Of a DNA stretch of 64,000 bases, positions 12,191-55,989 are shown piece by piece. The translations under genes and the position numbers were made by a program. Origin of the DNA: a virus; IMG/VR virus record IMGVR_UViG_3300031972_002446, positions 1 to 64,000 of that record. One strand, written 5' to 3'. The notes below the pieces were generated by a model. That model was given only the letters and a program-made list of their open reading frames with translations. It had not been told where the DNA came from and ran no database searches. Position 1 is the first letter of the stretch; the number at the start of each line of letters is the position of its first letter.

Positions 12191-12223
12191 ATTATATCTC
12201 CTGTATATTTTTACAGTATATAA

Positions 12224-12229: not shown

Positions 12230-12231
12230 AT

Positions 12232-13185: not shown

Positions 13186-13190
13186 TAAAT

Positions 13191-15961: not shown

Positions 15962-15971
15962 GTGCTTCCTT

Positions 15972-27785: not shown

Positions 27786-28618
27786 TGAATAAATACTCCA
27801 TCAAATTCCTCTATAAGAAAATCTCTTATTAATTTAGCATCTTTGTTGTTCTGCAAATTATTTAATAGAGAATCTTGTCCACTAGAAGGGAATATGGTTC
27901 TGCCTTCAAAAAAAACTTTTTCGGAACGGATTAAAAAAAACTGAATAGTATTTCTAAATTGTGGATAATTTTGCCAATAATCTGGTTGTTTTTCTTTTAT
28001 CGCTTTTGCTAAAGCAGTACAATATATACTAAACTCTAACGCACCAGACACACTATCGTAATTTTTTTGAGTTAACATATTATTCATGTGATCATCTACT
28101 GCACACTCAGCACCACTGATATATGCACTCCACTCATCAACTGGATACAAACAAACATTGTTCCAAGACTTTAATTGCTTAACAAAATACAATGTATATC
28201 TATAACCTCTGAGAGTATTAGGTATGTAAGGAATTATATCTTCCATTTTAAGATGATTTGGCTCTTTAAGCCATACGCATCTACAACACCCTGAATAGAA
28301 AGCCCTATAACCTTTTCTTGTATTACTGATTGCGTTATTGATACCATGAACTGTTTCGTGAGCGTTGGTGCTTCTACCATGTTTGTTTCCAAATGGTTTA
28401 GCAAAACAAGTTATAACTTGATTATAGATAGAATTTTTTTCTAAATGTTTTTTATCTTCTAATTCAAAAATATCTAAAACTATCGGCGTTGATCTCGGTT
28501 CCATTTCTGAAAAAGTTTTAACTTCAACAGTCTCATTACCGAGACAATATTGAAATGATGAAATGGATAACGCATAATAACACCATATAGTTAATATTGC
28601 TGTAAAGAATCTAACCAT
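27782..28618 (-). CDS. secreted HExxH-motif putative metallopeptidase
   Basis: A 278-residue protein with an N-terminal signal peptide (FFTAILTIWCYYALSISSF) and an AHETVHGIN zinc-binding motif around residue 87. A downstream acidic segment (PVDEWSAYISGAEC) could provide the third zinc ligand. Cys residues suggest disulfides in the periplasm. No close family is recognised. It overlaps the thioredoxin-like gene by 28 nt and the CAP gene by 4 nt, forming an envelope-directed group. Confidence 0.65.
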   Translation of the reverse strand: MVRFFTAILTIWCYYALSISSFQYCLGNETVEVKTFSEMEPRSTPIVLDIFELEDKKHLEKNSIYNQVITCFAKPFGNKHGRSTNAHETVHGINNAISNTRKGYRAFYSGCCRCVWLKEPNHLKMEDIIPYIPNTLRGYRYTLYFVKQLKSWNNVCLYPVDEWSAYISGAECAVDDHMNNMLTQKNYDSVSGALEFSIYCTALAKAIKEKQPDYWQNYPQFRNTIQFFLIRSEKVFFEGRTIFPSSGQDSLLNNLQNNKDAKLIRDFLIEEFDGVFIQ

Positions 28619-29064
28619 TTTGAGTAATCCTTATCTTTATATCCTATTTTCCTTGAGAGTTCATTTCCTTTTAAATCAATTAGTATAGATGTAGGTAAAC
28701 TTCTAGGTCTATATTTATTAATATCATTACTATTATTATCCTTATTATCTGTGTCTAAAAAACAAATAATATAATCCTTAAACTGCTTAATCTTTTTAGA
28801 TGCTCTTTTCAAATCTTTACAGTAAGGACACCATTCAGCACCAAATATTACAATCACTTTTCTTTTATGCGTGGATGCTATCGCTTTGGCTTTTTTCAAA
28901 TCGTCGTATACAAAATTAGTATCTAATGTAGGAACAACAACAGGTTGATTATCTATATCAACTATATTAGTATCGGGTTTTGGATTCTCTTGTGTAACGC
29001 CACTTCTAAAAGCAATCACACTTACTAAGACTAAAAGGATAATATATAAAAATGATCTACTCAT
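28591..29064 (-). CDS. exported thioredoxin-like protein
   Basis: A 157-residue protein with an N-terminal hydrophobic signal/anchor (FLYIILLVLVSVIAF) and a thioredoxin fold: VIVIFGAEWCPYCKDLKRA carries the CPYC active site, and RPRSLPTSILIDLKG has the cis-proline region. It would act as a periplasmic disulfide oxidoreductase, possibly to fold the Cys-rich secreted proteins of this window. Confidence 0.85.
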   Translation of the reverse strand: MSRSFLYIILLVLVSVIAFRSGVTQENPKPDTNIVDIDNQPVVVPTLDTNFVYDDLKKAKAIASTHKRKVIVIFGAEWCPYCKDLKRASKKIKQFKDYIICFLDTDNKDNNSNDINKYRPRSLPTSILIDLKGNELSRKIGYKDKDYSKWLDSLQQY

Positions 29065-29581: not shown

Positions 29582-30397
29582 TTATTCTCCTTTAATTCTG
29601 CTATATAGTTTAATTATATCGTCATTAAATACTTTTTCTGCTTGAACACTTTTGTAGTCCTTTTTTTTATACACCCTTTTAGTATTACATCCTCCAGACC
29701 TAGACATTTTATCTTCAAAAAAATCTTGATAACTTCTAGTATAATAATGATTAATTCGCATCACTCTGTCAATGATTGGTTCTGTTTTATTTTCGTCTTT
29801 AAGAGTATGGCCGTAAAAATTTATAAGTCTTTGCTTATCTACATTAACAGTTCCTCTTTGTGTAGTACAACCATGAGGACTACATATGTCAAGCACCCTC
29901 ATAGGATACACAAAAGATTTTATATGTAGATTAGCAGGATTATTTGGGCAGCATTGAGTATACGCTTGGATAACAGATTCTTGTCTATATTTATGATTAT
30001 TAGAACCAAACATTAGCCAATATAAACCTATACCATCAACGTCTTCATACCTACAAAGATAATCTTTAATATTTTTAGATTCTTCCAATAACACAACAAA
30101 TTCATCACTATCAACGAAACCCACCCACCTGTATCCATGTAATCTTTTTAAACAATTTTTATACGCTCTTAACTGTTTACCATCTTGATTATCTTTACGC
30201 CAAGAAATAATACTCACTAATCCTTTTTTTATATACAAAACCAATGAGTCATAAAGTATCTGTTTATCATATTCGCAATTATCATATATGCATATCTTAT
30301 CTATGCCAATATGTAAATGATATTCCACCCACTCTTTCACATATTCAGGTCTATCTCTACAAAACAGACACAATGCTACATAGTTATTGCTCTTCAT
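29582..30397 (-). CDS. GT92-like glycosyltransferase
   Basis: About 271 residues from ATG 30397. YVALCLFCRDRPEYVKEWVEYHLHIG followed by ICIYDN is the GT92 N-terminal motif; WVGFVDSDEFVV supplies the DxD. The C-terminus has repeated Cys and an INHYYTRSYQDF segment common in the family (HY-x-x-S-x-E/D-F). Related to 13191-14015. A longer frame upstream overlaps the 44-residue gene in another frame and is unlikely to be the real start. Confidence 0.78.
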   Translation of the reverse strand: MKSNNYVALCLFCRDRPEYVKEWVEYHLHIGIDKICIYDNCEYDKQILYDSLVLYIKKGLVSIISWRKDNQDGKQLRAYKNCLKRLHGYRWVGFVDSDEFVVLLEESKNIKDYLCRYEDVDGIGLYWLMFGSNNHKYRQESVIQAYTQCCPNNPANLHIKSFVYPMRVLDICSPHGCTTQRGTVNVDKQRLINFYGHTLKDENKTEPIIDRVMRINHYYTRSYQDFFEDKMSRSGGCNTKRVYKKKDYKSVQAEKVFNDDIIKLYSRIKGE

Positions 30398-30518
30398 TTT
30401 CTGTATCATTTTCTTGATCGTTTTGCTCTTGATCGCCAAAAATTCTTTCATAGTTTTGTGACCAAGTTTTGAAATCAATACCTAAAGGTCTATTTCTATC
30501 TCCTTTTCCGTTAGACAT
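30384..30518 (-). CDS. small phage-type protein (44 aa)
   Basis: ATG 30518 overlaps the stop of the sulfotransferase gene (TAATG). MSNGKGDRNRPLGIDFKTW then YERIFGD resembles a widespread tiny phage protein of unknown role (KGDxxRP...YxxIFG), which I recognise only by pattern. The acidic C-terminal third ends in GAAGAGCAATAA and overlaps the next gene's start by 14 nt. Confidence 0.6.
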   Translation of the reverse strand: MSNGKGDRNRPLGIDFKTWSQNYERIFGDQEQNDQENDTENEEQ

Positions 30519-31168
30519 TAATATCTCCTTTGATTTTTTTGGTAATTAAATAAAGACTCGACATCCCAATTAATATTTTTATTTATAATATCTTTATGTC
30601 TATTTTCTATATTGTATGGTTGTTTGTGTTTTGTTTTTTCAAAATTTTTATTTTTTATTTTTATAGAAAACACTTCGGAAATACTTGCAATAACACCTTC
30701 CAAATTATTACATAAATCTTCATACCTTATATGGTAATGATTATTGTTCATTGACGGCACAGTATCGTGCAGATATAATAATTTTCTTTCTCTCATTTGG
30801 AAAATGTTTTTATGTCTAGAATTATCTTTCCAATATCTATCATCAGTTCTTTCTTTACCATAATCGGGATGTCTATTTCCATGATGTATAGAATACCATT
30901 CTGATAACAAAAAACTTTCAAATGTCTTCATATGAAAAGGCACATGATGTTTGCTTTCAAATAAAGCAGATAACCAATCATAAGGATTTCTTACTACACA
31001 TAAAAACAATGTATCATTAGAATCTTTCATGCCTTGATCATGCCAACCCATAAAGTGTTTTGGCCCAAAGTCAAAAGTATATTTTAAATCAAATACTTTA
31101 GGTATGAGTCTTTCTATATAGTTAGTTCCACAATTTCTTTCTGCACAAACTGTAAATTTTTTAATCAT
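30518..31168 (-). CDS. sulfotransferase-like protein
   Basis: A 216-residue protein. FTVCAERNCGTNYIERLI provides the 5'-phosphosulfate loop, a variant of the usual P-x-S-G-T-x-x. LFLCVVRNPYDWLSALF is the 3'-phosphate motif (RNPxDxxxS). These transfer sulfate from PAPS to glycans or other acceptors. The KTKHKQPYN tail resembles the C-termini of the other sulfotransferases here. Overlaps the HhH glycosylase gene by 4 nt. Confidence 0.72.
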   Translation of the reverse strand: MIKKFTVCAERNCGTNYIERLIPKVFDLKYTFDFGPKHFMGWHDQGMKDSNDTLFLCVVRNPYDWLSALFESKHHVPFHMKTFESFLLSEWYSIHHGNRHPDYGKERTDDRYWKDNSRHKNIFQMRERKLLYLHDTVPSMNNNHYHIRYEDLCNNLEGVIASISEVFSIKIKNKNFEKTKHKQPYNIENRHKDIINKNINWDVESLFNYQKNQRRY

Positions 31169-31869
31169 GCTTCTAATACATAACTCCAGTATCTACTATC
31201 TTCTTTATCTTGTAGAGCATCCCAGTAAACACATCTAGCAATATAAGAAGGCACTTTTATTTTCCCGCAATTTACGCTCCAGTGTTGCTCCATGCGCTTG
31301 TACTTTTGCGTTCCTTGCTTACTCTTATTATAAGATAAATGCTCCATGTCGTAAAGTCTTAATTGATGTACATCACCACATAAAACTCTGGCGAAGTTTG
31401 GATGAATCATTTCTAGAGCAAAAGATACTTTAGCCATACCTAAACCAGTCACTCGATTTACAATTTCATCACGTTTTTTAACATGATACTTTTTTGTTGT
31501 CAAATAAAAGTCAGTAGGTTTAGCCCAGAACTGTGTTGCAAAATCCCAGATGTATTTTGTACGATTGTTGTGCAGACCTACTCCTGAATTGGCTAATTTA
31601 GATAGGAGTTTTTCTTTGTCGTCGATCCATTCTTCATACTGCTTGATGGCTTCATAGCCACGACAATTCCCCTGCCAACTTGTATGAACAGAACAGTAAG
31701 CAAACAGATAACGCCTAAAAATATCGCCATGATTCTGTGGTCGTACACTTTCCCAATACTCCTTATATGCTTCTACTTTTTCTACAGGGAATGTCTTAAA
31801 AAAGTCGTCTGCTTTAGAGCGACAGTATGTAGTTTTTTTCTCAGGTTTAGTTTCTAATGCAATTACCAT
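31165..31869 (-). CDS. HhH-type DNA glycosylase-like protein
   Basis: The ATG at 31869 is used because the -10 box of its promoter overlaps the longer frame and TTTGGAG lies upstream. About 234 residues. VTGLGMAKVSFALEMI resembles the helix-hairpin-helix of base-excision glycosylases and is followed by LCGDVHQLRLY, where an Asp at the catalytic position is expected. No iron-sulfur Cys cluster. It may excise damaged or modified bases, or be a phage-specific relative of unknown substrate. Confidence 0.6.
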   Translation of the reverse strand: MVIALETKPEKKTTYCRSKADDFFKTFPVEKVEAYKEYWESVRPQNHGDIFRRYLFAYCSVHTSWQGNCRGYEAIKQYEEWIDDKEKLLSKLANSGVGLHNNRTKYIWDFATQFWAKPTDFYLTTKKYHVKKRDEIVNRVTGLGMAKVSFALEMIHPNFARVLCGDVHQLRLYDMEHLSYNKSKQGTQKYKRMEQHWSVNCGKIKVPSYIARCVYWDALQDKEDSRYWSYVLEA

Positions 31870-31906
31870 AACAGTCTCCAAATAGTTTCCAAATGTGATA
31901 CTATCC

Positions 31907-31935
31907 ATTCTACATTACTGTTATCGTCTTGTCAA
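31907..31935 (-). promoter_or_regulatory. sigma70-like promoter with GACGATAA spacer
   Basis: TTGACA (31935-31930), 17-nt spacer with GACGATAACA, TAGAAT (31912-31907), 38 nt before the glycosylase start. Confidence 0.82.
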
Positions 31936-31967
31936 CTCAATTACTTGAGTCTTTTATATTTTATTGT

Positions 31968-32618
31968 TTATGTCCTTAAATTTGTAAACTTTTCAGTTGA
32001 ATATTTTACAGGATGATACAAACCGGGAGTGTTTATATTAAATTCTAAAGATTTATTATTTTCTATGAATTTAATATTTCTTAGTGATGGGTGACTTTCG
32101 ATTTTAATTTTATTACGATTAAGTATACTAGGAAGTCTTACCTCGCAACACATTCTCTCTTTGTATATTTGATCATATTTTTTATTTATTAAAATATCTA
32201 AACAGTTTTTAGACATGAAATATAAAGAAAAAGGCATACATCCAACCGCATATTTTTTCCATTCTTCTAATCTTAATATATGGGGCCAATTTCTCCATAT
32301 TGCAGATGTTTCGGGTATCATTTTTTTATGACATAATAGTTCGTTGTTTAGTTTAATATCAGGTAATCGTTGAGTTATTAATACATCATATTCTACTAAA
32401 GCAACATTATTATATTTTATATTATTTATCCTAGAAGGCTTTGATAAGAACCAATCTCTAACTATCATATCGCATTGAAAACCCGCAAGAGGATTTGGAT
32501 TTGTAAAATCTAATTTAATAATCTGAGCATCTGGATTGGATTCTTTTAAATATTTTAAATGTAAATATTCATTTTTGTGATTTGAGCAGGCTATTACCGT
32601 CCAATTATTTTTACTCAT
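31968..32618 (-). CDS. possible glycosyltransferase, unrecognised (216 aa)
   Basis: MSKNNWTVIACSNHKNEYLHLKYLK start, then VALVEYDVLIT around residue 73, which could be a modified metal motif (EYD). WPHILRLEEWKK and GLYHPVKYS later. The general look is of a GT-A-like transferase and it lies in the glycosyl/sulfotransferase block, but there is no firm family match. Confidence 0.45.
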   Translation of the reverse strand: MSKNNWTVIACSNHKNEYLHLKYLKESNPDAQIIKLDFTNPNPLAGFQCDMIVRDWFLSKPSRINNIKYNNVALVEYDVLITQRLPDIKLNNELLCHKKMIPETSAIWRNWPHILRLEEWKKYAVGCMPFSLYFMSKNCLDILINKKYDQIYKERMCCEVRLPSILNRNKIKIESHPSLRNIKFIENNKSLEFNINTPGLYHPVKYSTEKFTNLRT

Positions 32619-33456
32619 ATGAAATGTATTTTTGTATGGACAAACTATCTTTTAAGAAATCTTCTTTGTTGATAAAATTATCTTCAATTTGCATATTGTC
32701 TTTAGATTGTTTTAATGTTGTTCTTAATTTTCTATGATTTGTTTCTAACTTTATACCGATTGTTTCATACAATAGTTTATATAGTTCGTCGGTACTCTGG
32801 TTAACTATATCTTCATAAGATAGCCAAATTTTAGGTTTTGTGCATTGTTTATATATCTCCAAGTATTCTTTCAATATATTCTTATGTGTTTCAGCATAAG
32901 ATATGAAATATTCTTTATTCCATAAAATTTTAACTTCTTGATTATTATTTAATATTGTTGGATTCTTTTTTAACGTATTTCTATTGACATTCCACAAGCC
33001 TGTTTTATGTGCTTTATTTAAACTAATAAACTGTGCTAAAACATCTTTTCTATTTAAAAATATAACAAAGTCTACCATTTCTATTATTTTATTAATTTCT
33101 TTGCTCTGACCATATAATAACTTCATGCACACATATTCGTATTTATCTGCTAACTCATCCAGTTTTACAGATAAGTGCCTATGATTTATCACACCTATAT
33201 CTAAATAGGCGGGATTGTATTGCATACTAGATACATTTTCTAGAAAATCCTTATATAGATATAATTTTTCTATTTTATTTTGTTTTATATATTTTTTTAT
33301 ATCTTCTAAGTGTTTATCTATATGGAATTTAGATCTATTAAAAAACTCAGCCAGATTATAAACATTTGATAATCCATTGCATAATTGTGTGAGTAAAAAT
33401 GAACTACCGCTTCGCATACTTGCTAATATTAGTATTTTTTTTGGTTTAGAAATCAT
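32611..33456 (-). CDS. sulfotransferase, type 1-like
   Basis: A 281-residue protein. ILILASMRSGSSFLLTQL is the 5'-phosphosulfate-binding loop (R-S-G-S-S) of sulfotransferases such as the Stf0/type 1 families; VIFLNRKDVLAQFISLNKA holds the RxDxxxQxxS 3'-phosphate motif. WLSYEDIV is the later conserved YE-D segment. Likely PAPS-dependent and aimed at a carbohydrate. Overlaps its neighbours by 8-11 nt. Confidence 0.85.
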   Translation of the reverse strand: MISKPKKILILASMRSGSSFLLTQLCNGLSNVYNLAEFFNRSKFHIDKHLEDIKKYIKQNKIEKLYLYKDFLENVSSMQYNPAYLDIGVINHRHLSVKLDELADKYEYVCMKLLYGQSKEINKIIEMVDFVIFLNRKDVLAQFISLNKAHKTGLWNVNRNTLKKNPTILNNNQEVKILWNKEYFISYAETHKNILKEYLEIYKQCTKPKIWLSYEDIVNQSTDELYKLLYETIGIKLETNHRKLRTTLKQSKDNMQIEDNFINKEDFLKDSLSIQKYISYE

Positions 33457-34033
33457 ATTTAAAAAAATTTATCTCCTCTTTGTATCTATTTAGAACAATA
33501 TTCTTTGTTTCTTCAGTATAGTACTCTCGGTAATTTTTATGATCTGATTGATGAACATGCGGGAGGTTAGTAATATCTTCTTTAATATTAAGTTTATCAC
33601 AAACATATTGGATATCTTCTTTAAGATTTTCAAAACTTATAAAAGCATTCATTATATTTTGCTTACATTGATAATGTTTATACAAATTTTCTATTGGAAA
33701 CTTACTATTTACAAAATCATAAAAAGTAGAATCACTATCTATTGTATTTCTTTTTTTCATCCAAAAAAATTTAGAAACCATTCTGTCCCAAGTATTTCTA
33801 ATATTAGCAAATTTGAAATATGATTCCCATTGCTCTTCAGTCACATAAGGTTTAACGTGACAGGGTTTCATATGGTTCCAAAATGTTGTGCCTTCAGGGA
33901 TTGGGGGGTTTCCTCTCCATCCTACTATATCTATATTTTTATCACAAAATTGTTCAAAAAACATTTCTGTGGATGTTCCAGCAGTTTTACCAATTTTAAA
34001 ATATATGAATTTTTTGGTATGCGATATGATCAT
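33446..34033 (-). CDS. sulfotransferase family 2-like
   Basis: A 195-residue protein: YFKIGKTAGTSTEMFF is the phosphosulfate loop (K-x-A-G-T-S) and FANIRNTWDRMVSKFF the 3'-phosphate motif. The end HQSDHKNYREYYTEETKNIV is a tail motif shared with 37206, 37795 and 52960. PAPS-dependent carbohydrate sulfation is the likely activity. It overlaps the DNA ligase stop by 4 nt. Confidence 0.85.
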   Translation of the reverse strand: MIISHTKKFIYFKIGKTAGTSTEMFFEQFCDKNIDIVGWRGNPPIPEGTTFWNHMKPCHVKPYVTEEQWESYFKFANIRNTWDRMVSKFFWMKKRNTIDSDSTFYDFVNSKFPIENLYKHYQCKQNIMNAFISFENLKEDIQYVCDKLNIKEDITNLPHVHQSDHKNYREYYTEETKNIVLNRYKEEINFFKYDF

Positions 34034-35349
34034 ACTGTTCTCATATCCCCATGTAGTATTTTAAATGTTGGAAATCTAAGACTAATACCTCCTTCTTGAT
34101 TTTTAGTTTCTTCAAAGTATTGTACTGTTATAATCTTGCCCACAATAGCATCAGGATTTTTATAAAAGTCTTGTCTCTGATCTATAGAGAATCCACTACC
34201 CACTCTAACTGTATTATCTTTATGTTTGATATATACACAAGAAAGCATCTCTTCTTCAGTTTCTTTACCATTTATTGTTAGAGGAAACATACCTATTTCA
34301 GTATCTAACACTTCATACTCAGCATCATGGAAAGTTTTTACTTTAAGTAAGTCTTTACTACGCTTACCTTTATACTGAACATTTTTGCGTAGCATGACAC
34401 CTTCCCATTCGTTAACATCTGCTTTAGATACCCACTGCTGGAAATGGTCGTCATCATTTACTATCTCCATTTCTAACACAGATAGACAGGGACACTCGTT
34501 GTCTTCCATAGTAAATAATAATTCTTTATATCTCTGGTAAAGATTGTGTTCACTTTTCTTTGCTTTAAACTCATCTTGTGTCATCATGTCAAAGATTTTA
34601 TAAGAAGGATTCTCGATAGTGTGATCTTTCTTGCGAAGTTGTTTCATAATACCCTGAAAGTCTTCATTACCATCTTTATCAACTAAACATAGTTCGCCAT
34701 CAAACACTATGTCAGTAAGTCCCAAAGCACTAATACTATCAGCGACCACGCCAAGAGTAAGGAACTCTTTTCCTGTGCGGGAATAGAAGGTAGTGTTGCC
34801 AAAATGATCAACAATAGCGAGACATCTAACACCATCCAGTTTCCTTGAAACAAACCACTCATCTTCCCACTCCACTAATTTAGGTTCATACTTTTCTGCA
34901 AGAGCGACACTGAACTCTGGAATAAAATCGGGTATAACTTTATTGATAAGTTTTACGCCAACTTTAGTTTTAAGGTCTTTGTCTAAAATACAATAAACAA
35001 GTTCTTCTTGTTCTGGATGCTTATTAATATAAGCATTTACAATTCTAATAGCATCATGTCCTGTAAATCTTCTAATATTCAAATCACTGAACAGTTGACA
35101 CAAGCCATATCCCGGTTCACAATCTCCGAAAAACAGGTCTGATCTTTTCTTAACTTGACTACTTGTTAAGCCATACATAAGATAATCATTGTGTGCTAGA
35201 TTCAATACGTTTCTAGCATGAAGTTGATCTCCGTTATCCTCCTCTTTACCTGCTTTACAATACTTGGCAATGATTTCCTGCTTGGCTATAGTACCACTGT
35301 TGTTACGCAGTTCGTTGATCATAGACATAACGTATTCTGTACTGTTCAT
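34030..35349 (-). CDS. ATP-dependent DNA ligase
   Basis: A 439-residue ligase. Motif I is FVSRKLDGVRCLA with the AMP-accepting Lys, then FYSRTGKEF (motif III region), IVFDGELCL, EGVMLRK (motif IV/V) and LLKVKTF (motif V), followed by an OB-fold with VGKIITVQYFEETK. It seals nicks with ATP, as T4-type phage ligases do. The start has GGAT upstream and the gene has its own early-type promoter. Sulfotransferase genes follow directly, an odd pairing. Confidence 0.92.
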   Translation of the reverse strand: MNSTEYVMSMINELRNNSGTIAKQEIIAKYCKAGKEEDNGDQLHARNVLNLAHNDYLMYGLTSSQVKKRSDLFFGDCEPGYGLCQLFSDLNIRRFTGHDAIRIVNAYINKHPEQEELVYCILDKDLKTKVGVKLINKVIPDFIPEFSVALAEKYEPKLVEWEDEWFVSRKLDGVRCLAIVDHFGNTTFYSRTGKEFLTLGVVADSISALGLTDIVFDGELCLVDKDGNEDFQGIMKQLRKKDHTIENPSYKIFDMMTQDEFKAKKSEHNLYQRYKELLFTMEDNECPCLSVLEMEIVNDDDHFQQWVSKADVNEWEGVMLRKNVQYKGKRSKDLLKVKTFHDAEYEVLDTEIGMFPLTINGKETEEEMLSCVYIKHKDNTVRVGSGFSIDQRQDFYKNPDAIVGKIITVQYFEETKNQEGGISLRFPTFKILHGDMRTV

Positions 35350-35385
35350 TATAATATCCTGTGTCCTGTGATTCCTGTTACTTGC

Positions 35386-35414
35386 AGTATATACTATTCA
35401 TCGGTAATTGTCAA
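35386..35414 (-). promoter_or_regulatory. sigma70-like promoter of DNA ligase
   Basis: TTGACA (35414-35409), 17-nt spacer containing ACCGATGA, TATACT (35391-35386), about 37 nt before the ligase start. It overlaps the 3' end of the coiled-coil gene. Confidence 0.78.
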
Positions 35415-35665
35415 TCACAATCTTTAGTGGAATCACCAGTAAATAACTCTTGTATAGATTCTATTTTTGATGACAAAATTTCTTTTTGAAGTTGGGCAGT
35501 TTCTTGCTCTGTTTTTAGGTCGTCTATATCCTGTTGTGCTATAGTATTTCTTACTAATTTATTAGCATGTTCATATCTTTGTATTTTTTTTGCTAAATTT
35601 TTCTCCAAAATTTCTTGTTGTTTTAATTCTAGTTTTAGAATTTTTAATTCTGTGTCTTTACTCAT
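35411..35665 (-). CDS. coiled-coil protein (84 aa)
   Basis: Almost entirely one amphipathic coiled coil (LKILKLELKQQEILEKNLAK onward) with a short Asp-rich end. No family recognised. Its 3' end overlaps the ligase promoter. Confidence 0.5.
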   Translation of the reverse strand: MSKDTELKILKLELKQQEILEKNLAKKIQRYEHANKLVRNTIAQQDIDDLKTEQETAQLQKEILSSKIESIQELFTGDSTKDCD

Positions 35666-35706
35666 TATGATATCCTATCAATTAATAACTAATATTTGTT
35701 AAATCT

Positions 35707-36462
35707 TTACATAAAATTTTCATATTGATCAATATTCATGTAATCTTGAAGATCAAATCCCTTTTTCTTCCAAAAACCATGCATATTTCTAGGCATTCTT
35801 ATATCACTATCTCTAATCTCACTAATACAAAGAGGTGGATTTAATATAGTGGATTTAAGTTTAGATGCTTCCTTCCAAACAATATGATCTATTGGTACTA
35901 TTTCACTATAATCTAAATTGTTTAATTTGTCTGACAGTTTGTGTATTGCTTTCAATGAATACCAAATAGCATATGTTCCACAAGTAATAAATTTTCTGTT
36001 TTCGGATACTGGTATATTCTTTTGATTGGTTTGGATCGCTGTTTGTTGAACTGTAGATAGAGAGTAATTATTGTAACCAAAATAAATTAAATCATACTGA
36101 TCAAATATATTCTCTAAATATAGATTGTTTAAATTTTCTTTAAACTTTTTATGAAAATACACATCATCTTCTATTACTAAACAAGAATTTATTTCTTCTG
36201 TTAGTAAGTGATTAAATAACATCTGGTAACTTAATAGACATCCAAAAGCGCCTTTATCTCCAGTTAAAATTTTCTGATGGTTTTTTCTACAGTAATTTTC
36301 ATAATCGTTATACGATTTACATTTCTTACCATCTATTGCATTGAAGTATAAGTAATTATTTAATCCTATATTTTTCATCTTAAAATTCATAAATTTTCTT
36401 CTATGAATACTTTTGCTCATTGATAATATGATTATGCTACCTAGCATTTTTGATAAAATCAT
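35707..36462 (-). CDS. GT25-family glycosyltransferase
   Basis: A 251-residue protein with GSIIILSMSKSIHRRKFM, the GT25 start (I-x-L-x-R-x-x-R-R), YFNAIDGK, GAFGCLLSYQMLF and SCLVIEDDVYF, the ED-D motif of LPS-type galactosyltransferases. A later in-frame start at 36447 is possible. Overlaps the GT2 gene by 26 nt. Confidence 0.82.
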   Translation of the reverse strand: MILSKMLGSIIILSMSKSIHRRKFMNFKMKNIGLNNYLYFNAIDGKKCKSYNDYENYCRKNHQKILTGDKGAFGCLLSYQMLFNHLLTEEINSCLVIEDDVYFHKKFKENLNNLYLENIFDQYDLIYFGYNNYSLSTVQQTAIQTNQKNIPVSENRKFITCGTYAIWYSLKAIHKLSDKLNNLDYSEIVPIDHIVWKEASKLKSTILNPPLCISEIRDSDIRMPRNMHGFWKKKGFDLQDYMNIDQYENFM

Positions 36463-37216
36463 TCACTTTTTCCCTATAGACTCTCATTTCTGAGTTACAT
36501 ATAGCATCATTTACACCATTAATATTATCAACATAATGATAGTATGAAGTATTATACCGTATAGAATTATTTGTATTGTAAACATAAATTGGTTTATCAA
36601 TATATTTAGGTCTGCTGTTTTCTTGTTCTAAAACATAAAACATTTCAGCCATATCTGTTCCTACTTGTATCCATTGATTATCTATTTGTAAATAATGGGA
36701 TGGATTTATACTATTGATTAATTGACTCTTCATAGTTCTTAAATGAGATGCCGAGTTTGACATAGTATTTCTATAAGATTTTTGACGATGAACAATATTA
36801 CGAAAATCTTTTCTAGGTCTAGACATATTAGTACCCGTGCTGAGATACGAACCATAAGTGCAATTATATCCAGCATCATATTCAGTGTTTAAAATATTTA
36901 AAACACTATCTCCGTACAACCAATCATCTCCATCTAGCATACAGCATATTTCATCATCATTAGTATTCATATACCCTTGATATCTTGATCCTGCTGGCCC
37001 TATTTTTTTTGGGTTTTGTAGATAAGTAAATTTTTTAGTTAAGCCTAAATTTTTCACATAGTCTTTTACTAATTTCAATGTATTATCAGTAGAGTGATCA
37101 TCTATATATATTACTCTCCAATTATCGTATTTTTGTTTTGCTATTGACTTAATATTGTACTCATACCAATCTTTATTGTTATAAGAAGGTATAATAAACA
37201 CAAAATTAAAACCCAT
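36437..37216 (-). CDS. GT2-family glycosyltransferase
   Basis: A 259-residue GT-A enzyme: FVFIIPSYNNKDWYEYNIKS, YIDDHSTDNT and CCMLDGDDWLYG are the classical GT2 nucleotide-binding and DxD motifs. Likely transfers a hexose to a growing glycan. Overlaps the upstream sulfotransferase by 11 nt. Confidence 0.9.
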   Translation of the reverse strand: MGFNFVFIIPSYNNKDWYEYNIKSIAKQKYDNWRVIYIDDHSTDNTLKLVKDYVKNLGLTKKFTYLQNPKKIGPAGSRYQGYMNTNDDEICCMLDGDDWLYGDSVLNILNTEYDAGYNCTYGSYLSTGTNMSRPRKDFRNIVHRQKSYRNTMSNSASHLRTMKSQLINSINPSHYLQIDNQWIQVGTDMAEMFYVLEQENSRPKYIDKPIYVYNTNNSIRYNTSYYHYVDNINGVNDAICNSEMRVYREKVNDFIKNAR

Positions 37217-37808
37217 AATTAAAAGCCTTTATGTCTTTTTTGAACAGATTAAAAACGTGTTCTTTAGTTTCTTTATCATAATATGTTGAGTAGTGTTGAT
37301 GCTTAGTACTATTACAATTATCTAGTTGTATTGAGGTTATATTCATATGCTTACAAACTTTATTGAAATCATTTTGTAAATTTTCAAACTTTCCTACAAA
37401 ATCTACTGCTAAATCACCATTCACAGTTAAACAGTCATATTGTGTAGATGCTTGCCACATAATAGGTTCTCGTTTTTTATCATTCATCAACCATTCTCTA
37501 AAAGGAGTGTCGATTGTTTCTTCATGTCCCTCCCTCTGTCTGTAAAAATAATGAGAAACACATAAATCCCAAGGATTTCTAACAAAAGAGAATTTAAATA
37601 ACTTATCCCAAATAGAATTTATTTCTGGACAATCAGCAAGTATTTCTGCTGAATTATGTTTATACCTAAAGTTTGGTCTTTTTTTGATTTTAACTGTACT
37701 AGATACAACATGCGGATATAAATACTCTCGTAATGCTTTTTCTATACTGGTTGTTCCTGTTTTTTGTATTGCTATAAACAATATAGCATATGTTTTACTT
37801 AGGATCAT
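37206..37808 (-). CDS. sulfotransferase family 2-like
   Basis: About 200 residues from ATG 37808. ILFIAIQKTGTTSIEKAL is the phosphosulfate loop and FKFSFVRNPWDLCVSHYF the 3'-phosphate motif. The tail KHQHYSTYYDKETKEHVFN is the same C-terminal pattern as the other family members. The start overlaps the 44-residue remnant gene, which carries the same tail. An in-frame upstream ATG at 37823 is less likely. Confidence 0.88.
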   Translation of the reverse strand: MILSKTYAILFIAIQKTGTTSIEKALREYLYPHVVSSTVKIKKRPNFRYKHNSAEILADCPEINSIWDKLFKFSFVRNPWDLCVSHYFYRQREGHEETIDTPFREWLMNDKKREPIMWQASTQYDCLTVNGDLAVDFVGKFENLQNDFNKVCKHMNITSIQLDNCNSTKHQHYSTYYDKETKEHVFNLFKKDIKAFNYGF

Positions 37809-37929
37809 ATCCGAACCTTTCAAAATCTTGTTTATATTTTTCGTATACTTTATCTCTCAATGCTTTATTATAATACTCTGAATTGTGTTTATGTCCCAAG
37901 CAAGGTTTATATAATCTAGAATCTGGCAT
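37795..37929 (-). pseudogene. stand-alone sulfotransferase C-terminal tail (44 aa)
   Basis: ATG 37929 to TAA 37795. The 44 residues contain GHKHNSEYYNKALRDKVYEKY then DFERFGYD, matching only the final 40 residues of the neighbouring sulfotransferases (H-x-H-x-x-Y-Y-x-x-x-x-x-x-x-V). The catalytic part is missing, so this is most simply the remnant of a deleted or recombined sulfotransferase copy, though a small functional peptide cannot be excluded. Confidence 0.6.
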
Positions 37930-38531: not shown

Positions 38532-38534
38532 AAG

Positions 38535-38873
38535 TGGAGGCGAGGGGAGTCGAACCCCTGTCCAGTATAAATTCCATATAAACTTCTACATCGTTAGTCT
38601 GTTGTTATTAATACTACAGACAAAACTGTTTGTCTTTCCAACGGCAAAGTGATTACACTTATCTTTATATTTAATTCAGGTATAATTCCCTATCCGATTA
38701 TCGGAGTCAACATAATTGGGTAAAAAGGTTTATGTAACCCCTCCCACCTAAGCGGCGAGTGCTAATACAGAAGTATCGGCAATTAAAATGTGATCTATTT
38801 TTAAACTGGCCTTTAGATCAACCAGTCGATGCAATCTATACTTCTATTTATCTGTCGATACCAGTACGCCCCC
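38535..38873 (-). ncRNA. ssrA: transfer-messenger RNA (tmRNA)
   Basis: A 339-nt one-piece tmRNA. The 5' end GGGGGCG pairs with the 3' end CGCCTCC (7 bp, one G-U), the T arm is GGGG TTCGACT CCCC-type, and the characteristic 5' GGTATCGACAG follows. CCA is not encoded. The tag reading frame lies at 38780-38748. tmRNA with SmpB rescues stalled ribosomes and marks the nascent peptide for proteolysis. A phage copy may support translation late in infection or alter the tag. Confidence 0.93.
38748..38780 (-). other. tmRNA tag-peptide reading frame
   Basis: Resume codon GCC at 38780-38778 gives ADTSVLALAA followed by TAG. The ALAA end is the conserved protease degron of SsrA tags; the middle differs from the ANDENYALAA of E. 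coli. The resume codon is assigned by fit to known tag length. Confidence 0.75.
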
Positions 38874-50100: not shown

Positions 50101-50129
50101 ATTATATAACTCTATTCGTCTTTTGTCAA
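50101..50129 (-). promoter_or_regulatory. sigma70-like promoter with GACGAATA spacer
   Basis: TTGACA (50129-50124), 17-nt spacer with AGACGAATAG, TATAAT (50106-50101), about 65 nt before ATG 50035. It overlaps the 3' end of the GT25 gene. Confidence 0.8.
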
Positions 50130-50846
50130 CTGGCAACTTGAATTTTTTTTATAATTTAAAGTTGACTCAAAATTTTCACATTGACCAATTAAGTCGGTTA
50201 TAGGCGTATATATATTTAGTCTCGGATGAATGTAATATTTATATACTTGGTCTATATGGCTTAGTCTTTTAAGACCTTGATCTTTTTTGATCGCACCACT
50301 CTCCATATTATTTATATGGTCTATTAGCGTTTGAACCACATCTTTAATAATTTTTGGATTCATAATATATGCATGTGTTTGTAATTGCCACTCCGGTTTA
50401 TAAATATAATTATCAACTAATTTAGTTTCGGAGATTAATTTTGCATTTTGGCTTTCTTTATTAAAATAAACAGGCTTATCAAAATATATCATATCCCAAT
50501 TCAGAGACAAATTGTTTTTCAGTATATAATCTATATACTTATTTACTTCGTCAATATCATAAATTTCGGCATCGTCTTCTAAAATTAAGCACAGTTCATC
50601 TATATCTGTAATACTTTTAAGAATCTCTAAATGAGTTAAAAATAAAGATTTGATATTCGTATTATAAAAGTTTGTAAAATGATTACATTTTATAGAATTA
50701 ATAATTTGATATTTTAATTTAAATTTCTCAAATTGTTTTTTTTGAAAATATAACCTATCAATAAGTTTAGGATGGTTTATTAAAAATATTTTATCCACAG
50801 AAGTTTTATTTGGTGCTTCGTGGATGTCCTTTTGGTAGTAAGTCAT
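50112..50846 (-). CDS. GT25-like glycosyltransferase
   Basis: About 244 residues from ATG 50846. IFLINHPKLIDRLYF is the GT25 start, IKSLFLTHLEIL the acceptor helix and LCLILEDDAEIYD the metal motif. Overlaps the preceding gene by 41 nt, an unusually long overlap. Second GT25 in the window after 35707-36462. Confidence 0.75.
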   Translation of the reverse strand: MTYYQKDIHEAPNKTSVDKIFLINHPKLIDRLYFQKKQFEKFKLKYQIINSIKCNHFTNFYNTNIKSLFLTHLEILKSITDIDELCLILEDDAEIYDIDEVNKYIDYILKNNLSLNWDMIYFDKPVYFNKESQNAKLISETKLVDNYIYKPEWQLQTHAYIMNPKIIKDVVQTLIDHINNMESGAIKKDQGLKRLSHIDQVYKYYIHPRLNIYTPITDLIGQCENFESTLNYKKNSSCQLTKDE

Positions 50847-51252
50847 TGTCTTGCTTATAGCCAGAATTTGATGGCCTTCCCGTTCTGAGTATTGTAAGAA
50901 AAGCATTTACTCTTGCCATAGCCCAACCATCTCTACTCATTTTAGGGGCGTGAGAAGTTGAATACGCTCCAGCGCCTCTTCTGTATACTGCTTTTAACAT
51001 ACCTAATGTAGCCTTACTCCCTTTACCCTTCTTTTTAATTTTTTCATTATGTTCACTAACTTTATTCTTTAATTTATCTATAGTCTTTTTACTAAACGTA
51101 ATCTTGCTTTTGTCGTCTTTGGCACTATCAGGTTTATTTTTCTTACTACCTTTTTTCTGATCTTTTTTAGGAGCAGGAGTTCTTCGTGGGTCTTTTGGCC
51201 CAGGTTTATCTGCTACTGTTTTTAACGCCTCTAGAAATTTGTTAGTTCTCAT
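50806..51252 (-). CDS. DUF5824-like basic protein (148 aa)
   Basis: Lys-rich N-terminal half and a C-terminal domain YRRGAGAYSTSHAPKMSRDG then WAMARVNAFL, which matches the DUF5824 core seen in phage structural or head-associated proteins. Basic, so it may bind DNA in the virion. Preceded by GGAG and a GGTGTAT motif, which fits late expression. Confidence 0.6.
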   Translation of the reverse strand: MRTNKFLEALKTVADKPGPKDPRRTPAPKKDQKKGSKKNKPDSAKDDKSKITFSKKTIDKLKNKVSEHNEKIKKKGKGSKATLGMLKAVYRRGAGAYSTSHAPKMSRDGWAMARVNAFLTILRTGRPSNSGYKQDNDLLPKGHPRSTK

Positions 51253-51275: not shown

Positions 51276-51662
51276 TTATACACCATTTTTTTTACCTTTT
51301 AAATCTGCTATATTTTGTGCAATATCTACTAGCCTATCCCAATTTGCATCAATATATTCTTTTGGCCCACCCATATCAGCCTGTGCCTGTGCTATTTCTT
51401 CGGTAGGAACCATCTCGATAGCATCCCAAGGACAGACTTTAAGATCATATTTCTTACCTTTACCGCCGGGAACATGAATACATTGTTCGCAACCTATACA
51501 AGTAGACAAATCAATCTCACACCATTGAGTTACTCCCTGTTTTATCTGGAATATACAATCAACAGGACATACTTCTAAACAAGCCTCACAACCAGTACAA
51601 TTATCTGCTTGAATTATTGCTAATTCTTTAGGAATCTTTTTTCTTGGTTTTTTGTTTGCCAT
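51276..51662 (-). CDS. double 4Fe-4S ferredoxin-like protein
   Basis: A 128-residue protein with CTGCEACLEVCPVDC (a canonical 4Fe-4S site) and CIGCEQCIHVPGGK...VCPWDA (second site, longer spacing). It is encoded directly after DUF1501 with shared TAATG and has an extended C-terminus. Such ferredoxins sit near redox genes in Planctomycetes. In a phage it could be electron-transfer cargo. Confidence 0.85.
   Translation of the reverse strand: MANKKPRKKIPKELAIIQADNCTGCEACLEVCPVDCIFQIKQGVTQWCEIDLSTCIGCEQCIHVPGGKGKKYDLKVCPWDAIEMVPTEEIAQAQADMGGPKEYIDANWDRLVDIAQNIADLKGKKNGV
51279..51284 (-). promoter_or_regulatory. GGTGTAT upstream motif
   Basis: Minus strand AATGGTGTATAACC, 27-32 nt before the start at 51252; overlaps the ferredoxin stop region. 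Confidence 0.4.
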
Positions 51663-52957
51663 TATGCTATAATATCGTGTTGAATGTTACCAAATACATC
51701 AGTTAGTCTAAAGTCTCTACCACTATATCTATATGTTAATTTACTATGGTCAATACCCATTAGATGTAATATAGTAGCATGTAAATCATGCATGTCCATA
51801 CCATCCACTGCTTTATGCCCAAAATCATCAGTAGAACCATATCTCATACCACCTTTAACACCACCACCTGCCATCCACATAGAAAATCCACTATTATTAT
51901 GATCTCTACCTGTTGCTCCTTCTTTTATACCGGGAGTTCTGCCAAACTCACTTCCAAATAATATAATTGTATCTTCAAATAATCCAGAATCTTTTAAGTC
52001 TTGGATCAAAGCAGCGATAGGTTTATCAATAGCAGAAGTATTCTTTTTTAAATTATCATTAATGTTCTGGTGCATATCCCATCCACCATGACCAATCTCT
52101 ACGAATCTAACTCCTGCTTCACTAAATTTCTTTGCTAATAAACACTGTTTGCCAAATTTAGCAGTGGCTTTATCATTGATACCATACTTCTGTAAGGTTT
52201 GTTGCGATTCTTTTGATATATCAATAGTATTAGGAACACTTGTCTGCATCCTAAAAGCCAACTCATAACTCTCAATCAATCCTTCTAGTCTACCATTTTC
52301 TGCACCATCTTTTAGGTGCATCTGGTTAAAGTCTCTTAATAAATCTAAATCTTTTCTTTGTCTGTCTTTAGTTGTAGATGTATTTACAAGATTAGGTATA
52401 GCACTTTTACTACCAGCATTAATAGCAGTGCCTTGATATACTGCTGGTAAGAATGAACTACCATAATTATCAGGCCCAATGTTAGCATCTATAGTTATAA
52501 ACCCCGGCAACTCTTTATTCTCTGTGCCTAATCCATACAATAACCAACTACCCATACTAGGTCTACTGAATTGAAAATTCCCGGTATGTAATAAACTTCT
52601 TGCTTGATTATGATTACCTGTTTTACTCTTCATACCATTCAACAGACATAAATCATCTGCATGTTTACGCAAGTGTGGGAAGTTCTCGCTAATTTCTATG
52701 CCGCTATCTCCTGCTGGAGTTAAAGGCACTCCCGGTTTCATAATCTTTCTACCTTTACTTACAGGATCATCTATACCTGCTTTTTCTACCATTAAAGGCT
52801 TATGATCAAAAGTATCAGTATGAGTCATACCACCATTCATATACATGAATATAACTCTCTTATTACTTTTCATAGCCTCTTCTGCCATTAATCCTTTTAA
52901 TGCTAACATACCGAAACCAAAACTACTGGCTTGTAATAAACTTCTTCTATTTAACAT
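51662..52957 (-). CDS. DUF1501 protein with Tat-like leader
   Basis: A 431-residue protein of the planctomycete DUF1501 family, related to the sulfatase/alkaline phosphatase fold. Leader MLNRRSLLQASSFGFG looks Tat-type. Hallmarks: HTDTFDHKP, GHGGWDMHQN, LFGSEFGRTPG, ATILHLMGID and the C-terminal YSGRDFRLTDV. In Planctomycetes these genes pair with DUF1549/DUF1553 proteins, as here. Exported; substrate unknown. Confidence 0.93.
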   Translation of the reverse strand: MLNRRSLLQASSFGFGMLALKGLMAEEAMKSNKRVIFMYMNGGMTHTDTFDHKPLMVEKAGIDDPVSKGRKIMKPGVPLTPAGDSGIEISENFPHLRKHADDLCLLNGMKSKTGNHNQARSLLHTGNFQFSRPSMGSWLLYGLGTENKELPGFITIDANIGPDNYGSSFLPAVYQGTAINAGSKSAIPNLVNTSTTKDRQRKDLDLLRDFNQMHLKDGAENGRLEGLIESYELAFRMQTSVPNTIDISKESQQTLQKYGINDKATAKFGKQCLLAKKFSEAGVRFVEIGHGGWDMHQNINDNLKKNTSAIDKPIAALIQDLKDSGLFEDTIILFGSEFGRTPGIKEGATGRDHNNSGFSMWMAGGGVKGGMRYGSTDDFGHKAVDGMDMHDLHATILHLMGIDHSKLTYRYSGRDFRLTDVFGNIQHDIIA

Positions 52958-52959
52958 AT

Positions 52960-53583
52960 TTACTCTCCGAATTTATAGTTTAATAATTCTATATCTTGTT
53001 CATATTTGTCTTTAACTATTTGTTGAGTTTCCTCATTATAATATTCTTGATATGGTCTGTGTTTGGATTTGTGCATTGTTTTAAATTTCTTACGTTTGGG
53101 CATACCTATTGCATCACACACAAAACCAAGATCATTTGCAAAATTTTCAAAACGACCTACAAAATCTATTTGATCAATAGGATACAATTCTGTTTGTAAC
53201 CTATAATGTCTATCGCATGTCTTAGTCTTTACATTTCTTATATAATGTATAAACTTATCAAATGTTTTAAAGTTATTCTTATTGAAGTTCTCATAACCAT
53301 CCTCCATTTTATTAAAATAACAACTAACTAATCTATCCCAAGGGTTTCTAACAAAAGCAAATTTAAAATAATTATCAGAATACATTCGGTTTTTCCATAG
53401 CAGATATTCCTGCCAAACATTTTCATCGTTCTGATATATATTAATTCTATTACAAAAACTTATTTTAGTATGTTGGCATAAGTGGGAAAGAATCGTTGTT
53501 GTTGCTGCTTTCGCAACCCTGAACCACAAATATTTATTTTTTTGTGATGAAGTTATCATAAATTTTGTTTTAATATACTTCAT
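52960..53583 (-). CDS. sulfotransferase family 2-like
   Basis: A 207-residue protein: WFRVAKAATTTILSHL is a variant phosphosulfate loop, FKFAFVRNPWDRLVSCYF the 3'-phosphate motif, and SKHRPYQEYYNEETQQIVKD the tail shared with other copies. It is inserted between the two members of the planctomycete gene pair, in the same direction and with 2-4 nt spacing. Confidence 0.85.
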   Translation of the reverse strand: MKYIKTKFMITSSQKNKYLWFRVAKAATTTILSHLCQHTKISFCNRINIYQNDENVWQEYLLWKNRMYSDNYFKFAFVRNPWDRLVSCYFNKMEDGYENFNKNNFKTFDKFIHYIRNVKTKTCDRHYRLQTELYPIDQIDFVGRFENFANDLGFVCDAIGMPKRKKFKTMHKSKHRPYQEYYNEETQQIVKDKYEQDIELLNYKFGE

Positions 53584-55952
53584 TTAATATTTCTAAATTC
53601 TCCTGTACAGATTATTATTTGAATAAGTTTGGCAAGATCGCTATCTTGTTTAATAAACTCTATAGATTTTTTATTCTCTTGCTCTGTCGGTGGACGACCT
53701 AAAAACTTTAGAAATATTTTATTTATGTTGTTGCGATATAATATACTGGGCATGGTTTTACCCATCTTTTTATTATGTTCAATCAATACTTTGGCTTCTT
53801 CTTGTGCCAATGCTATAATCTTAGGATTATTCATTAGAAATAACGCTTGTGTAGAAACTGTCGTAACGCTTCTCTCTGCATTAAGCAAACTATTATCTGG
53901 TCTATCAAATATATCCAGCACCTCAATCTTATTATCTCTTAACGATGGAATATAAATTGATCTTGCTCTTGTTTCTCCAATATACTTTCTTAATTCTTTA
54001 CTAGGATTTTTTATACCTGTTTGAAAATCACTTACATTTTTATGCGACCCGTCTAGTTTACCTGATACAAATAATAATGAATCCCTAATTTGTTCAGCCT
54101 CTAATCTTTTCTCATTCATTCTCCAGAAATAAATATTGTCAGGATCAATCTCATAATTATTTTTATCAAACTTACTACTACGCCTATAAGCATTGCTCAT
54201 TACAATAGTTTTTATAAGTCTTTTATTTGATAGTCTACCAGTAATAAATTTAGTGGATAAATAGTTCATAAGTTTAAGATTAGTAGGCTCTCCACCAAGT
54301 ATACCAAAATTATCAAAACTATCCAGTATACCTTTACCAAACAAATGTCTCCATACCCTATTAACATGAACCCTATAAGTTAATGGATTAGTTTTATGCG
54401 TTATCCATTCCGCAAACTCATATCGTCCACTGGTATTATCAAAATTAAGATTAGGTCTATCGCTAAATATTTCTGGTAATCTTCTAGGTACTTCATCACC
54501 CAGATTATTTACCTCTCCTCTGATCGCTAACTTAACCTCGCTCATTTTTTCTTTATCTTTAACAGACATAACCGGCTCAAGATATTCTAGCGTAGGAAAT
54601 TCTTCCTTGCCAGTAATCTCTTTTAGTTTATTCATCTTTTCTGTTAGTTGTTTTTCTCTTTTTCCTAATTCTTTATCTAATTGTTGTTCTGTTGCTCTTT
54701 TATTCCATGTTTTAATAGAATCTATTTGTGTCTGTAAATTTTTAATATCACATAATAAAAACCATTCCTCTATTTTTTTCTTCTTATATAAATCTTCTGT
54801 TTCTTTTGTCACAAGATAATCATAGTTTCCAAGATATCCAGTATTATTATTTCCCCGATACAAACCATCCATATTTTCTGTATTATTAAACACCCCAGCA
54901 ACACCATAATAGTCTTGCTGAGAAAATGGATCAAACTTATGATCATGGCATCTAGCACAACTTAAAGTCATACCTAGAAAACCCCTAGTGATTACATCTA
55001 TCTGATCGTCATTACGATCTGCCTCAAACTGTTTGGTTTGTGCCTGTATATTTTTAGTACCTATAGTTAAAAATCCTGTAGCGATCCTGTTATTGTTATA
55101 TTCTTCATAACTTTTATGTGGTAGTAGATCACCAGCGATTTGTTCTTTGATAAATTGATCGTATGGTTTGTCTTGATTAAAACTATCTATAACATAATCT
55201 CTATATCTCCAAGCATAAGGACTAATTAAATTCCTATCTTGCCCAGATGATTCTGCGTACCTTGCCACATCAAGCCAGTGTCGTCCCCATTTCTCTCCAA
55301 ACCCCTCATCTTGCAATAAACTATCAACTAACTTTTCATACTTATCTTCTGAAGTATCATCAGTATAGCCTTTTATTTGTTCAATACTTGGTGGCAAACC
55401 AATCAGGTCAAAATAAAGTCTGCGAACAATAGTATAATCGTCTGCTGCCTCTACTGGTTTTAGTTTGTTCTTTTCTATTTCTAAATTTAATATAGCATCT
55501 ATCTCTGTACCATCATCGTATTTGGCTACAGGAGGTCTCGCAACCTTTTTAAATGCCCAGAAATTTCTAGCCTGCTTTAATTCTACTGCCCTATTCTCAT
55601 GCTTATATCTTGGGTCAGGCATACCCATTTTAATCCATTGTCTAAAATTATTGACAACTTCTTCGCTGAGAGGATTATCTGGAGGCATATCACCAGACTC
55701 AATATAATCTAATAACAAACTCTCATCTGTCTTACCGGGAACAACTGATGGGCCAGAATCACCACCGTTTAATATGCCTTGCCTAGTATCTACAGACAAT
55801 CCACCCTTTACATCTTTAGAATTGGAAGAGTGACAAGAATAACATTGAGTGGTCAAAACTGGCTTAATATTTTGTTCAAAAAACTTTATACCGTTGTCTT
55901 GGGCAAATAATGATCCAGATAATAACACAAAGATAATACAGGACGACCTCAT
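53580..55952 (-). CDS. PSCyt1-DUF1549-DUF1553 planctomycete cytochrome-like protein
   Basis: A 790-residue exported protein (signal SSCIIFVLLSGSLFA). N-terminal PSCyt1 domain with heme-binding CYSCH and GDMPP; PSCyt2/DUF1549 with YTIVRRLYFDLIGLPP, GEKWGRHWLDVARYAES and a second CARCHDHKFDP site; C-terminal DUF1553 region with R-F-A-E-W-like EFAEWITHK and VNRVWRHLFG. Planctomycete relatives are usually nearer 1000 residues, so this is a compact version. AGGAGG precedes the start. Likely a secreted c-type cytochrome or degradative protein. Confidence 0.93.
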   Translation of the reverse strand: MRSSCIIFVLLSGSLFAQDNGIKFFEQNIKPVLTTQCYSCHSSNSKDVKGGLSVDTRQGILNGGDSGPSVVPGKTDESLLLDYIESGDMPPDNPLSEEVVNNFRQWIKMGMPDPRYKHENRAVELKQARNFWAFKKVARPPVAKYDDGTEIDAILNLEIEKNKLKPVEAADDYTIVRRLYFDLIGLPPSIEQIKGYTDDTSEDKYEKLVDSLLQDEGFGEKWGRHWLDVARYAESSGQDRNLISPYAWRYRDYVIDSFNQDKPYDQFIKEQIAGDLLPHKSYEEYNNNRIATGFLTIGTKNIQAQTKQFEADRNDDQIDVITRGFLGMTLSCARCHDHKFDPFSQQDYYGVAGVFNNTENMDGLYRGNNNTGYLGNYDYLVTKETEDLYKKKKIEEWFLLCDIKNLQTQIDSIKTWNKRATEQQLDKELGKREKQLTEKMNKLKEITGKEEFPTLEYLEPVMSVKDKEKMSEVKLAIRGEVNNLGDEVPRRLPEIFSDRPNLNFDNTSGRYEFAEWITHKTNPLTYRVHVNRVWRHLFGKGILDSFDNFGILGGEPTNLKLMNYLSTKFITGRLSNKRLIKTIVMSNAYRRSSKFDKNNYEIDPDNIYFWRMNEKRLEAEQIRDSLLFVSGKLDGSHKNVSDFQTGIKNPSKELRKYIGETRARSIYIPSLRDNKIEVLDIFDRPDNSLLNAERSVTTVSTQALFLMNNPKIIALAQEEAKVLIEHNKKMGKTMPSILYRNNINKIFLKFLGRPPTEQENKKSIEFIKQDSDLAKLIQIIICTGEFRNIK

Positions 55953-55983
55953 GTGTGATACCTCCTAAATTGGTATATTGAAA

Positions 55984-55989
55984 TACACC
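55984..55989 (-). promoter_or_regulatory. GGTGTAT upstream motif
   Basis: Minus strand TACGGTGTATTTCAATATAC, 32-37 nt before the PSCyt1 gene start; places the planctomycete cargo under the same motif as possible late genes. Confidence 0.5.

Follow-up and report, generated by a model that had tools for sequence, protein, structure and literature searches.

The window analysed here comprises the first 64,000 nucleotides of the viral record IMGVR_UViG_3300031972_002446 of IMG/VR, whose full length is 165,940 base pairs (bp). Between positions 51276 and 55952 it contains four genes, all on the minus strand and packed end to end, two of which (for PSCyt and DUF1501, see below) very likely represent a functional operon captured from a planctomycete. 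A first-pass annotation, made from the sequence alone, had recognized this gene set on this strand, and all four genes proved to be there with decisive Pfam scores:

53580..55952, minus strand: PSCyt1-PSCyt2(DUF1549)-PSD1(DUF1553) protein of 790 amino acids (hereafter PSCyt), identified by Pfam, a CxxCH scan, residue conservation and selection
52960..53583, minus strand: sulfotransferase (Sulfotransfer_2 / phrog_3347, the latter a PHROG auxiliary-gene family; Pfam 2e-21) between the PSCyt and DUF1501 genes
51662..52957, minus strand: DUF1501 protein of 431 amino acids, with PF07394 over its full length (Pfam E = 1e-133)
51276..51662, minus strand: 2x[4Fe-4S] ferredoxin of 128 amino acids (Pfam Fer4 families, 1e-9)

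The near-zero spacing that had been claimed for these genes was confirmed, as the PSCyt and sulfotransferase genes overlap in an ATGA, the sulfotransferase and DUF1501 genes are separated by a gap of 2 bp, and the stop codon of DUF1501 overlaps the ATG of the ferredoxin by 1 bp.

The PSCyt protein belongs to its family by the domain order PF07635, PF07583 and PF07587, each domain scoring over its gathering cut-off (PSCyt2/DUF1549, E = 2e-81; PSD1/DUF1553, 1e-71; PSCyt1, 1e-13). Its N-terminus, judged by eye, resembles a Sec signal, and it bears two CxxCH heme motifs (C37YSCH and C332ARCHDH) plus an MPP motif; in a scan of the open reading frames (ORFs) of the phage for CxxCH, it was the sole one with such motifs. 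The DUF1501 protein has a twin-arginine motif (NRRSLLQ) and intact WDxH and GRDH motifs. From these signals both proteins can be expected, with good confidence, to be exported. In the ferredoxin, two [4Fe-4S] cysteine clusters are present and no signal was seen, so that it would be cytosolic. The window has two paralogues of the sulfotransferase, at 37206 and 33446.

The record is that of a genuine tailed phage, and neither a chromosome nor a chimera. It encodes a terminase large subunit (record positions 91173-93209; PHROG match 2e-23), which also distantly matches those of phages Slash, Stills and MaeS, and a tape-measure ORF of 4,205 amino acids (record positions 105718-118335, corresponding to L024:1718-14335), part of whose frame matches annotated tape-measure proteins and whose size would mean a phage tail of unusual length. 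Also encoded are DNA polymerase III, ribonucleotide reductase, ThyX, DNA ligase, RuvB, Volactin and a transfer-messenger RNA (tmRNA). The terminase, one of the genes that the first-pass annotation had proposed to look for on the same contig, was thus found there along with the tape measure and replication genes. The guanine plus cytosine (GC) content of the window is 26-37% along its whole length.

A scan of IMG/VR returned 18 further contigs, representing 18 metagenome numbers, with a DUF1501 protein of 79-100% identity, as well as two that are more distant. PSCyt precedes DUF1501 in 13 of the 13 contigs where the upstream side is visible, and the ferredoxin follows in 13 of the 18 phage relatives; PSCyt and DUF1501 are the conserved core of the cassette. 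Because the flanking phage genes vary among phages, the unit is retained while its position shifts. In the relatives, DUF1501 begins within the final codons of PSCyt, whose coding sequence contains the ribosome-binding site (AGGAG) of DUF1501. The sulfotransferase insertion at 52960-53583, noticed already in the first-pass annotation, is found only in the window phage and in the near-identical L002, where it brought its own spacing, while the other relatives with that junction are without it.

The contigs G012 and G013 carry terminase and PSCyt together. Relatives of the terminase are numerous in IMG/VR (at least 598), and DUF1501 is missing from 12 of 14 terminase-relative contigs (48-224 kb), many of which are fragments. 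The two exceptions are G012, with a DUF1501 of the PSCyt-paired type, and G411, with a different DUF1501 and an exported vWA protein; L020 likewise carries a vWA-paired DUF1501. Since DUF1501 occurs in so few of these contigs, the PSCyt type seems confined to one branch of a far wider phage group. The vWA-paired type, in which the gene for an exported vWA-domain protein overlaps a DUF1501 from another cellular branch, was located as follows:

L270:8280-11410, minus strand: vWA-DUF1501 pair
L020:8031-11155, plus strand: vWA-DUF1501 pair; a further L020 DUF1501 copy lies at 14897-16138

It should be mentioned that the copy of the cassette at L015:913-3762 (IMGVR_UViG_3300050343_000285, 194,787 bp) shows frame breaks in the genes for DUF1501, the ferredoxin, DUF5824 and a glycosylase, which are probably sequencing errors.

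As to the cellular origin of the cassette, the closest cellular DUF1501 proteins are found in Planctomycetota (55-57% identity) and Verrucomicrobiota (53-54%), while the closest cellular PSCyt proteins are 42-43% identical. Among the 50 nearest cellular relatives of DUF1501, 46 adjoin a PSCyt gene on the same strand, which indicates that the pair was captured as a ready-made operon. In the DUF1501 tree (two to four copies scored per Planctomycetota genome), proposed in the first-pass annotation as a check of the origin, the ten phage proteins group together (100/100) on a stem of 0.78 changes per site, nested in a Planctomycetota group and with G384 as their sister (92/80). In this tree, DUF1501 of the phages is an old, monophyletic clade within Planctomycetota. 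The phage PSCyt proteins likewise form a single clade (100; stem 1.58), whose exact sister was not settled by the tree; its row L325, a wrong-frame ORF, was disregarded. The families, which the first-pass annotation had called characteristic of Planctomycetes, are not confined to them, considering the Verrucomicrobiota DUF1501 proteins at up to 54% identity and one at 48% in an Acidobacteriota metagenome-assembled genome (MAG).

The DUF1501 of L020 and G411 groups with Planctomycetales bacterium 10988 (100/100), and by its place in the tree the vWA-paired type is a separate capture; the second L020 copy (L020b) and L021 make up a third, long-branched phage group. For the ferredoxin, a Pirellulales MAG protein shows 69% identity, and of 392 Planctomycetota genomes only 7 gave a match at E<=1e-30; the cellular ferredoxin neighbourhoods showed no link to PSCyt or DUF1501. 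A further protein with planctomycete affinities is encoded elsewhere in the window:

25084-26091, minus strand: DUF1559 (SBP_bac_10) pilin-like protein with a C-terminal H-X9-DG (Pfam 5e-39; NCBIfam pre_pil_HX9DG)

Of 23 phage records, 6 carry DUF1559, with two copies in G011 (records L263-L269), and the sole full-length cellular match among the genomes tested was in a Planctomycetota genome. Taken together, the origins of the PSCyt-DUF1501 pair, of the ferredoxin and of DUF1559 point to planctomycete hosts.

The captured genes have become adapted to the phage and are maintained in it. Comparison of the phage copies gave ratios of nonsynonymous to synonymous substitution rates (dN/dS) of 0.02-0.08 (DUF1501), 0.04-0.11 (PSCyt) and 0.05-0.12 (ferredoxin), as against 0.06-0.10 for an ordinary phage gene, the synonymous rate being saturated in the most distant pairs. 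Every phage copy covering them conserves CYSCH and CARCHDHKFD of PSCyt, the twin-arginine, WDxH and GRDH motifs of DUF1501, and the ferredoxin cysteines. That the cassette is still under strong selection suggests that these host proteins matter during infection. The low GC that had been said to be shared with the phage genes is evident at third codon positions (0.20-0.23 in the three cassette genes, 0.223 +/- 0.036 in the other phage genes), and the codon usage of the cassette is that of the phage. Phage hallmark genes on the genome, phage flanks, cellular origin and selection, i.e. the features by which an auxiliary cassette is recognized, are all present.

A promoter-like element, which the first-pass annotation had placed before the first gene of the cassette, is indeed found there:

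55983..55989, minus strand: GGTGTAT promoter-like element, 37 nucleotides before the PSCyt start

The window contains 18 copies of GGTGTAT versus 6.6 expected (2.7-fold excess) and, over the whole record, 7 of 28 copies lie 15-70 nucleotides upstream of gene starts versus 0.77 expected. The motif is also present before PSCyt in L004 and L006, but not in most other relatives, and stands upstream of virion-type genes on the plus strand as well; from its placement, it is a candidate phage promoter element. The phage-like codon usage, this motif and the translational overlaps show integration into the phage programme, as had been suggested, rather than recent passive transfer.

The AlphaFold model of DUF1501 (predicted local distance difference test score, pLDDT, 86) matches the sulfatase/alkaline-phosphatase fold: Foldseek retrieved sulfatases and other enzymes of the alkaline-phosphatase superfamily, with a best E of 7e-8 and a template modelling score of only about 0.4. 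Recurrent neighbours of 20 close cellular pairs are sulfatases, GFO/IDH/MocA oxidoreductases and a parallel PSCyt3/DUF1552 set. In freshwater Verrucomicrobia, PSCyt genes adjoin sulfatases and bear carbohydrate-binding modules, although their function is not known (PMC5615132). A phmmer match of PSCyt to polyomavirus VP1 (E ~0.001) was judged spurious.

Based on these data, the cassette is probably a phage auxiliary-gene cassette, with an exported hydrolase and a diheme electron-transfer protein as a pair that would aid the energy supply in the host periplasm. As synteny and tree show, an ancestor of the phage group took the ready-made PSCyt-DUF1501 operon from a planctomycete; selection and motif conservation show that the operon has stayed functional. 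PSCyt would be exported by Sec and receive its heme from the host cytochrome-c machinery, perhaps aided by an exported thioredoxin of the phage:

28591-29064, minus strand: thioredoxin-like protein with export signal (WCPYC; Pfam Thioredoxin_2 7e-10)

This protein is a possible helper for heme attachment, to judge from its motif and signal; in L017, a thioredoxin gene (586-957; Pfam 1e-11) lies directly upstream of PSCyt. Going by its signals, motifs and fold, DUF1501 would be loaded with metal in the cytoplasm and then exported by Tat. In the periplasm, it may act as a hydrolase on an ester-linked substrate of sugar type, possibly one that is sulfated or phosphorylated, and the diheme PSCyt may oxidise the product or hand its electrons to the respiratory chain, so that energy and carbon supply would be sustained, or energy balanced, in the infected cell. 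The cytosolic ferredoxin would be an optional add-on, conveying electrons of low potential to reductases of the phage or the host. The sequences give good support to the predicted export and heme attachment, while the reaction of PSCyt and DUF1501 is a guess, and the idea that hydrolysis is coupled to electron transfer to supply the phage with energy is put forward only tentatively. The surface- or respiration-directed role proposed in the first-pass annotation is a reasonable inference.

Several observations weigh against this interpretation. We know of no PSCyt2/PSD1 or DUF1501 member with a known reaction. In DUF1501 the N-terminal metal ligand DD of sulfatases is not obvious, with GGM[ST]H there instead; neither this DD nor the sulfatase nucleophile motif CxPxR was evident in phage or cellular DUF1501 members, although the C-terminal WDxH and GRDH are present. 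The PSCyt model (pLDDT 77) matched no solved structure in the fold search of the PDB, and the neighbour census of the cellular pairs revealed no dominant pathway, any one family accounting for only 2-3 of 87 genes. The planctomycete host, inferred from the affinities of the genes, is an indirect assignment, and the GC content of the phage (31%) is below the planctomycete norm. Finally, in Rhodopirellula baltica the PSC2-PSD1 gene RB10051 and its sigma factor RB10049 take part in the common stress response, and DUF1559 and thioredoxin genes are likewise among those regulated by stress (PMC2754498); a protective role would be just as compatible with this.

It is accordingly possible, although we regard it as doubtful, that the pair preserves the envelope or the redox balance of the infected host until lysis, rather than serving catabolism. 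Besides the R. baltica genes, the phage itself has a DUF1559 protein and an exported thioredoxin; nevertheless, nothing links the phage genes to stress timing, and the sulfatase-type fold of DUF1501 and the sulfatases in the cellular neighbourhoods suggest substrate turnover. Somewhat less probable, and in our opinion unlikely, is that the exported proteins, together with sulfotransferases, glycosyltransferases and DUF1559, alter the envelope so as to block other phages (superinfection exclusion). Genes for sulfotransferases, glycosyltransferases, epimerases and NeuB abound in the window, DUF1559 is pilin-like, and a sulfotransferase is inserted in the operon itself; however, the latter is confined to two near-identical phages, and it is not obvious how a diheme cytochrome would contribute to masking. 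The GGTGTAT element before virion-type genes could mean late expression, and hence proteins packaged in the virion or acting at exit, but this appears very improbable, since the cassette is surrounded by replication, nucleotide and glycan genes at a great distance from the structural block, and the signal sequences indicate export. A chimeric assembly, contamination or a recent passive uptake of genes from a bacterial chromosome, which the families being cellular hallmarks might have suggested, is refuted by the 18 other contigs, the phage flanks on both sides, the ameliorated codon usage, the long phage stem in the tree, and the union of terminase and PSCyt in G012 and G013.

Phage-borne electron carriers are known from cyanophages, whose ferredoxin and photosynthetic electron-transfer auxiliary genes include plant-type 2Fe-2S ferredoxins, whereas the ferredoxin of this phage is a bacterial 2x[4Fe-4S] protein with no INPHARED match. 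Comparable are the soxC/soxD phage genes (PMC8190135), which also are virus-borne, selected partners of periplasmic c-type cytochrome systems and are thought to raise the energy yield of the host; they belong to other families and to another presumed host phylum, and here a conserved, translationally coupled operon is involved. With soxD as a precedent of its kind (PMC8190135), the present cassette is built of families not before described as phage auxiliary genes. Phage-ZRK32 (PMC10945688) is also a planctomycete phage with auxiliary genes, but a chronic one of 21.9 kb with nitrogen and amino-acid genes, probably from Pseudomonas; the parts of that report available to us do not mention PSCyt or DUF1501. 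Compared with Planctomycetota pairs such as G384:C35 and G081:C73, domains, gene order and motifs are alike, at identities of 55-57% (DUF1501) and 42-43% (PSCyt), but the phage copies are shorter, AT-rich, single-copy, in a clade of their own and provided with phage translation signals. The claim that no such phage set had been described holds for the sources searched: DUF1501, PSCyt and the ferredoxin had no match in INPHARED (50,697 phage records) and no PHROG, and no paper in the open-access collection searched ties these families to phages, many subscription papers being outside the reach of the search. The sole exception is A0A6J5M742 (BFVD, uncultured Caudovirales phage), already auto-named DUF1501, with 14% identity over the structural alignment.

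To our knowledge, PSCyt/PSD and DUF1501 are hallmarks of Planctomycetes and Verrucomicrobia, present in tens to more than 100 copies per genome and with no known biochemistry. One matched pair under strong selection in a phage shows which combination suffices to be useful, and represents a small, tractable system for function assignment. The cassette adds an electron-transfer operon not earlier described to the phage auxiliary genes, and is a marker for finding phages of Planctomycetes, few of which are known. It is conceivable, if still somewhat speculative, that a lineage of large planctomycete phages acquired operons of the DUF1501 type on two or more independent occasions (paired with PSCyt and paired with vWA), along with genes for DUF1559, thioredoxin and ferredoxin, as a dedicated host-periplasm programme. 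If so, DUF1501/PSCyt would be rate-limiting in infected planctomycetes, and the phages would offer a minimal single-copy handle on families present dozens of times per host genome without known function.

The remaining features of interest in the window are the following:

50806..51252, minus strand: DUF5824 phage gene (Pfam), downstream flank of the cassette and beside it in most relatives
10882-11886, minus strand: Volactin, a viral actin (Pfam E = 4e-67)
17758-18663, minus strand: RuvB, nearly complete (N, lid and C domains)
38534-38873, minus strand: tmRNA, tag ADTSVLALAA

About 100 bp inside the DUF5824 gene begins another gene (50112-50906, minus strand, 264 amino acids, no Pfam match), which, with no more than its first 34-37 residues seen in the majority of relatives, looks like an insertion. 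The tmRNA is about 50% identical to those of both Planctomycetota and Verrucomicrobiota, which suggests an old phage gene and made it uninformative as a host marker. Sugar and glycan genes are numerous on the minus strand at 3-18663 and 29582-37823, and comprise part of a transketolase, an SIS isomerase, NeuB, a nucleotidyltransferase, glycosyltransferases and several sulfotransferases.

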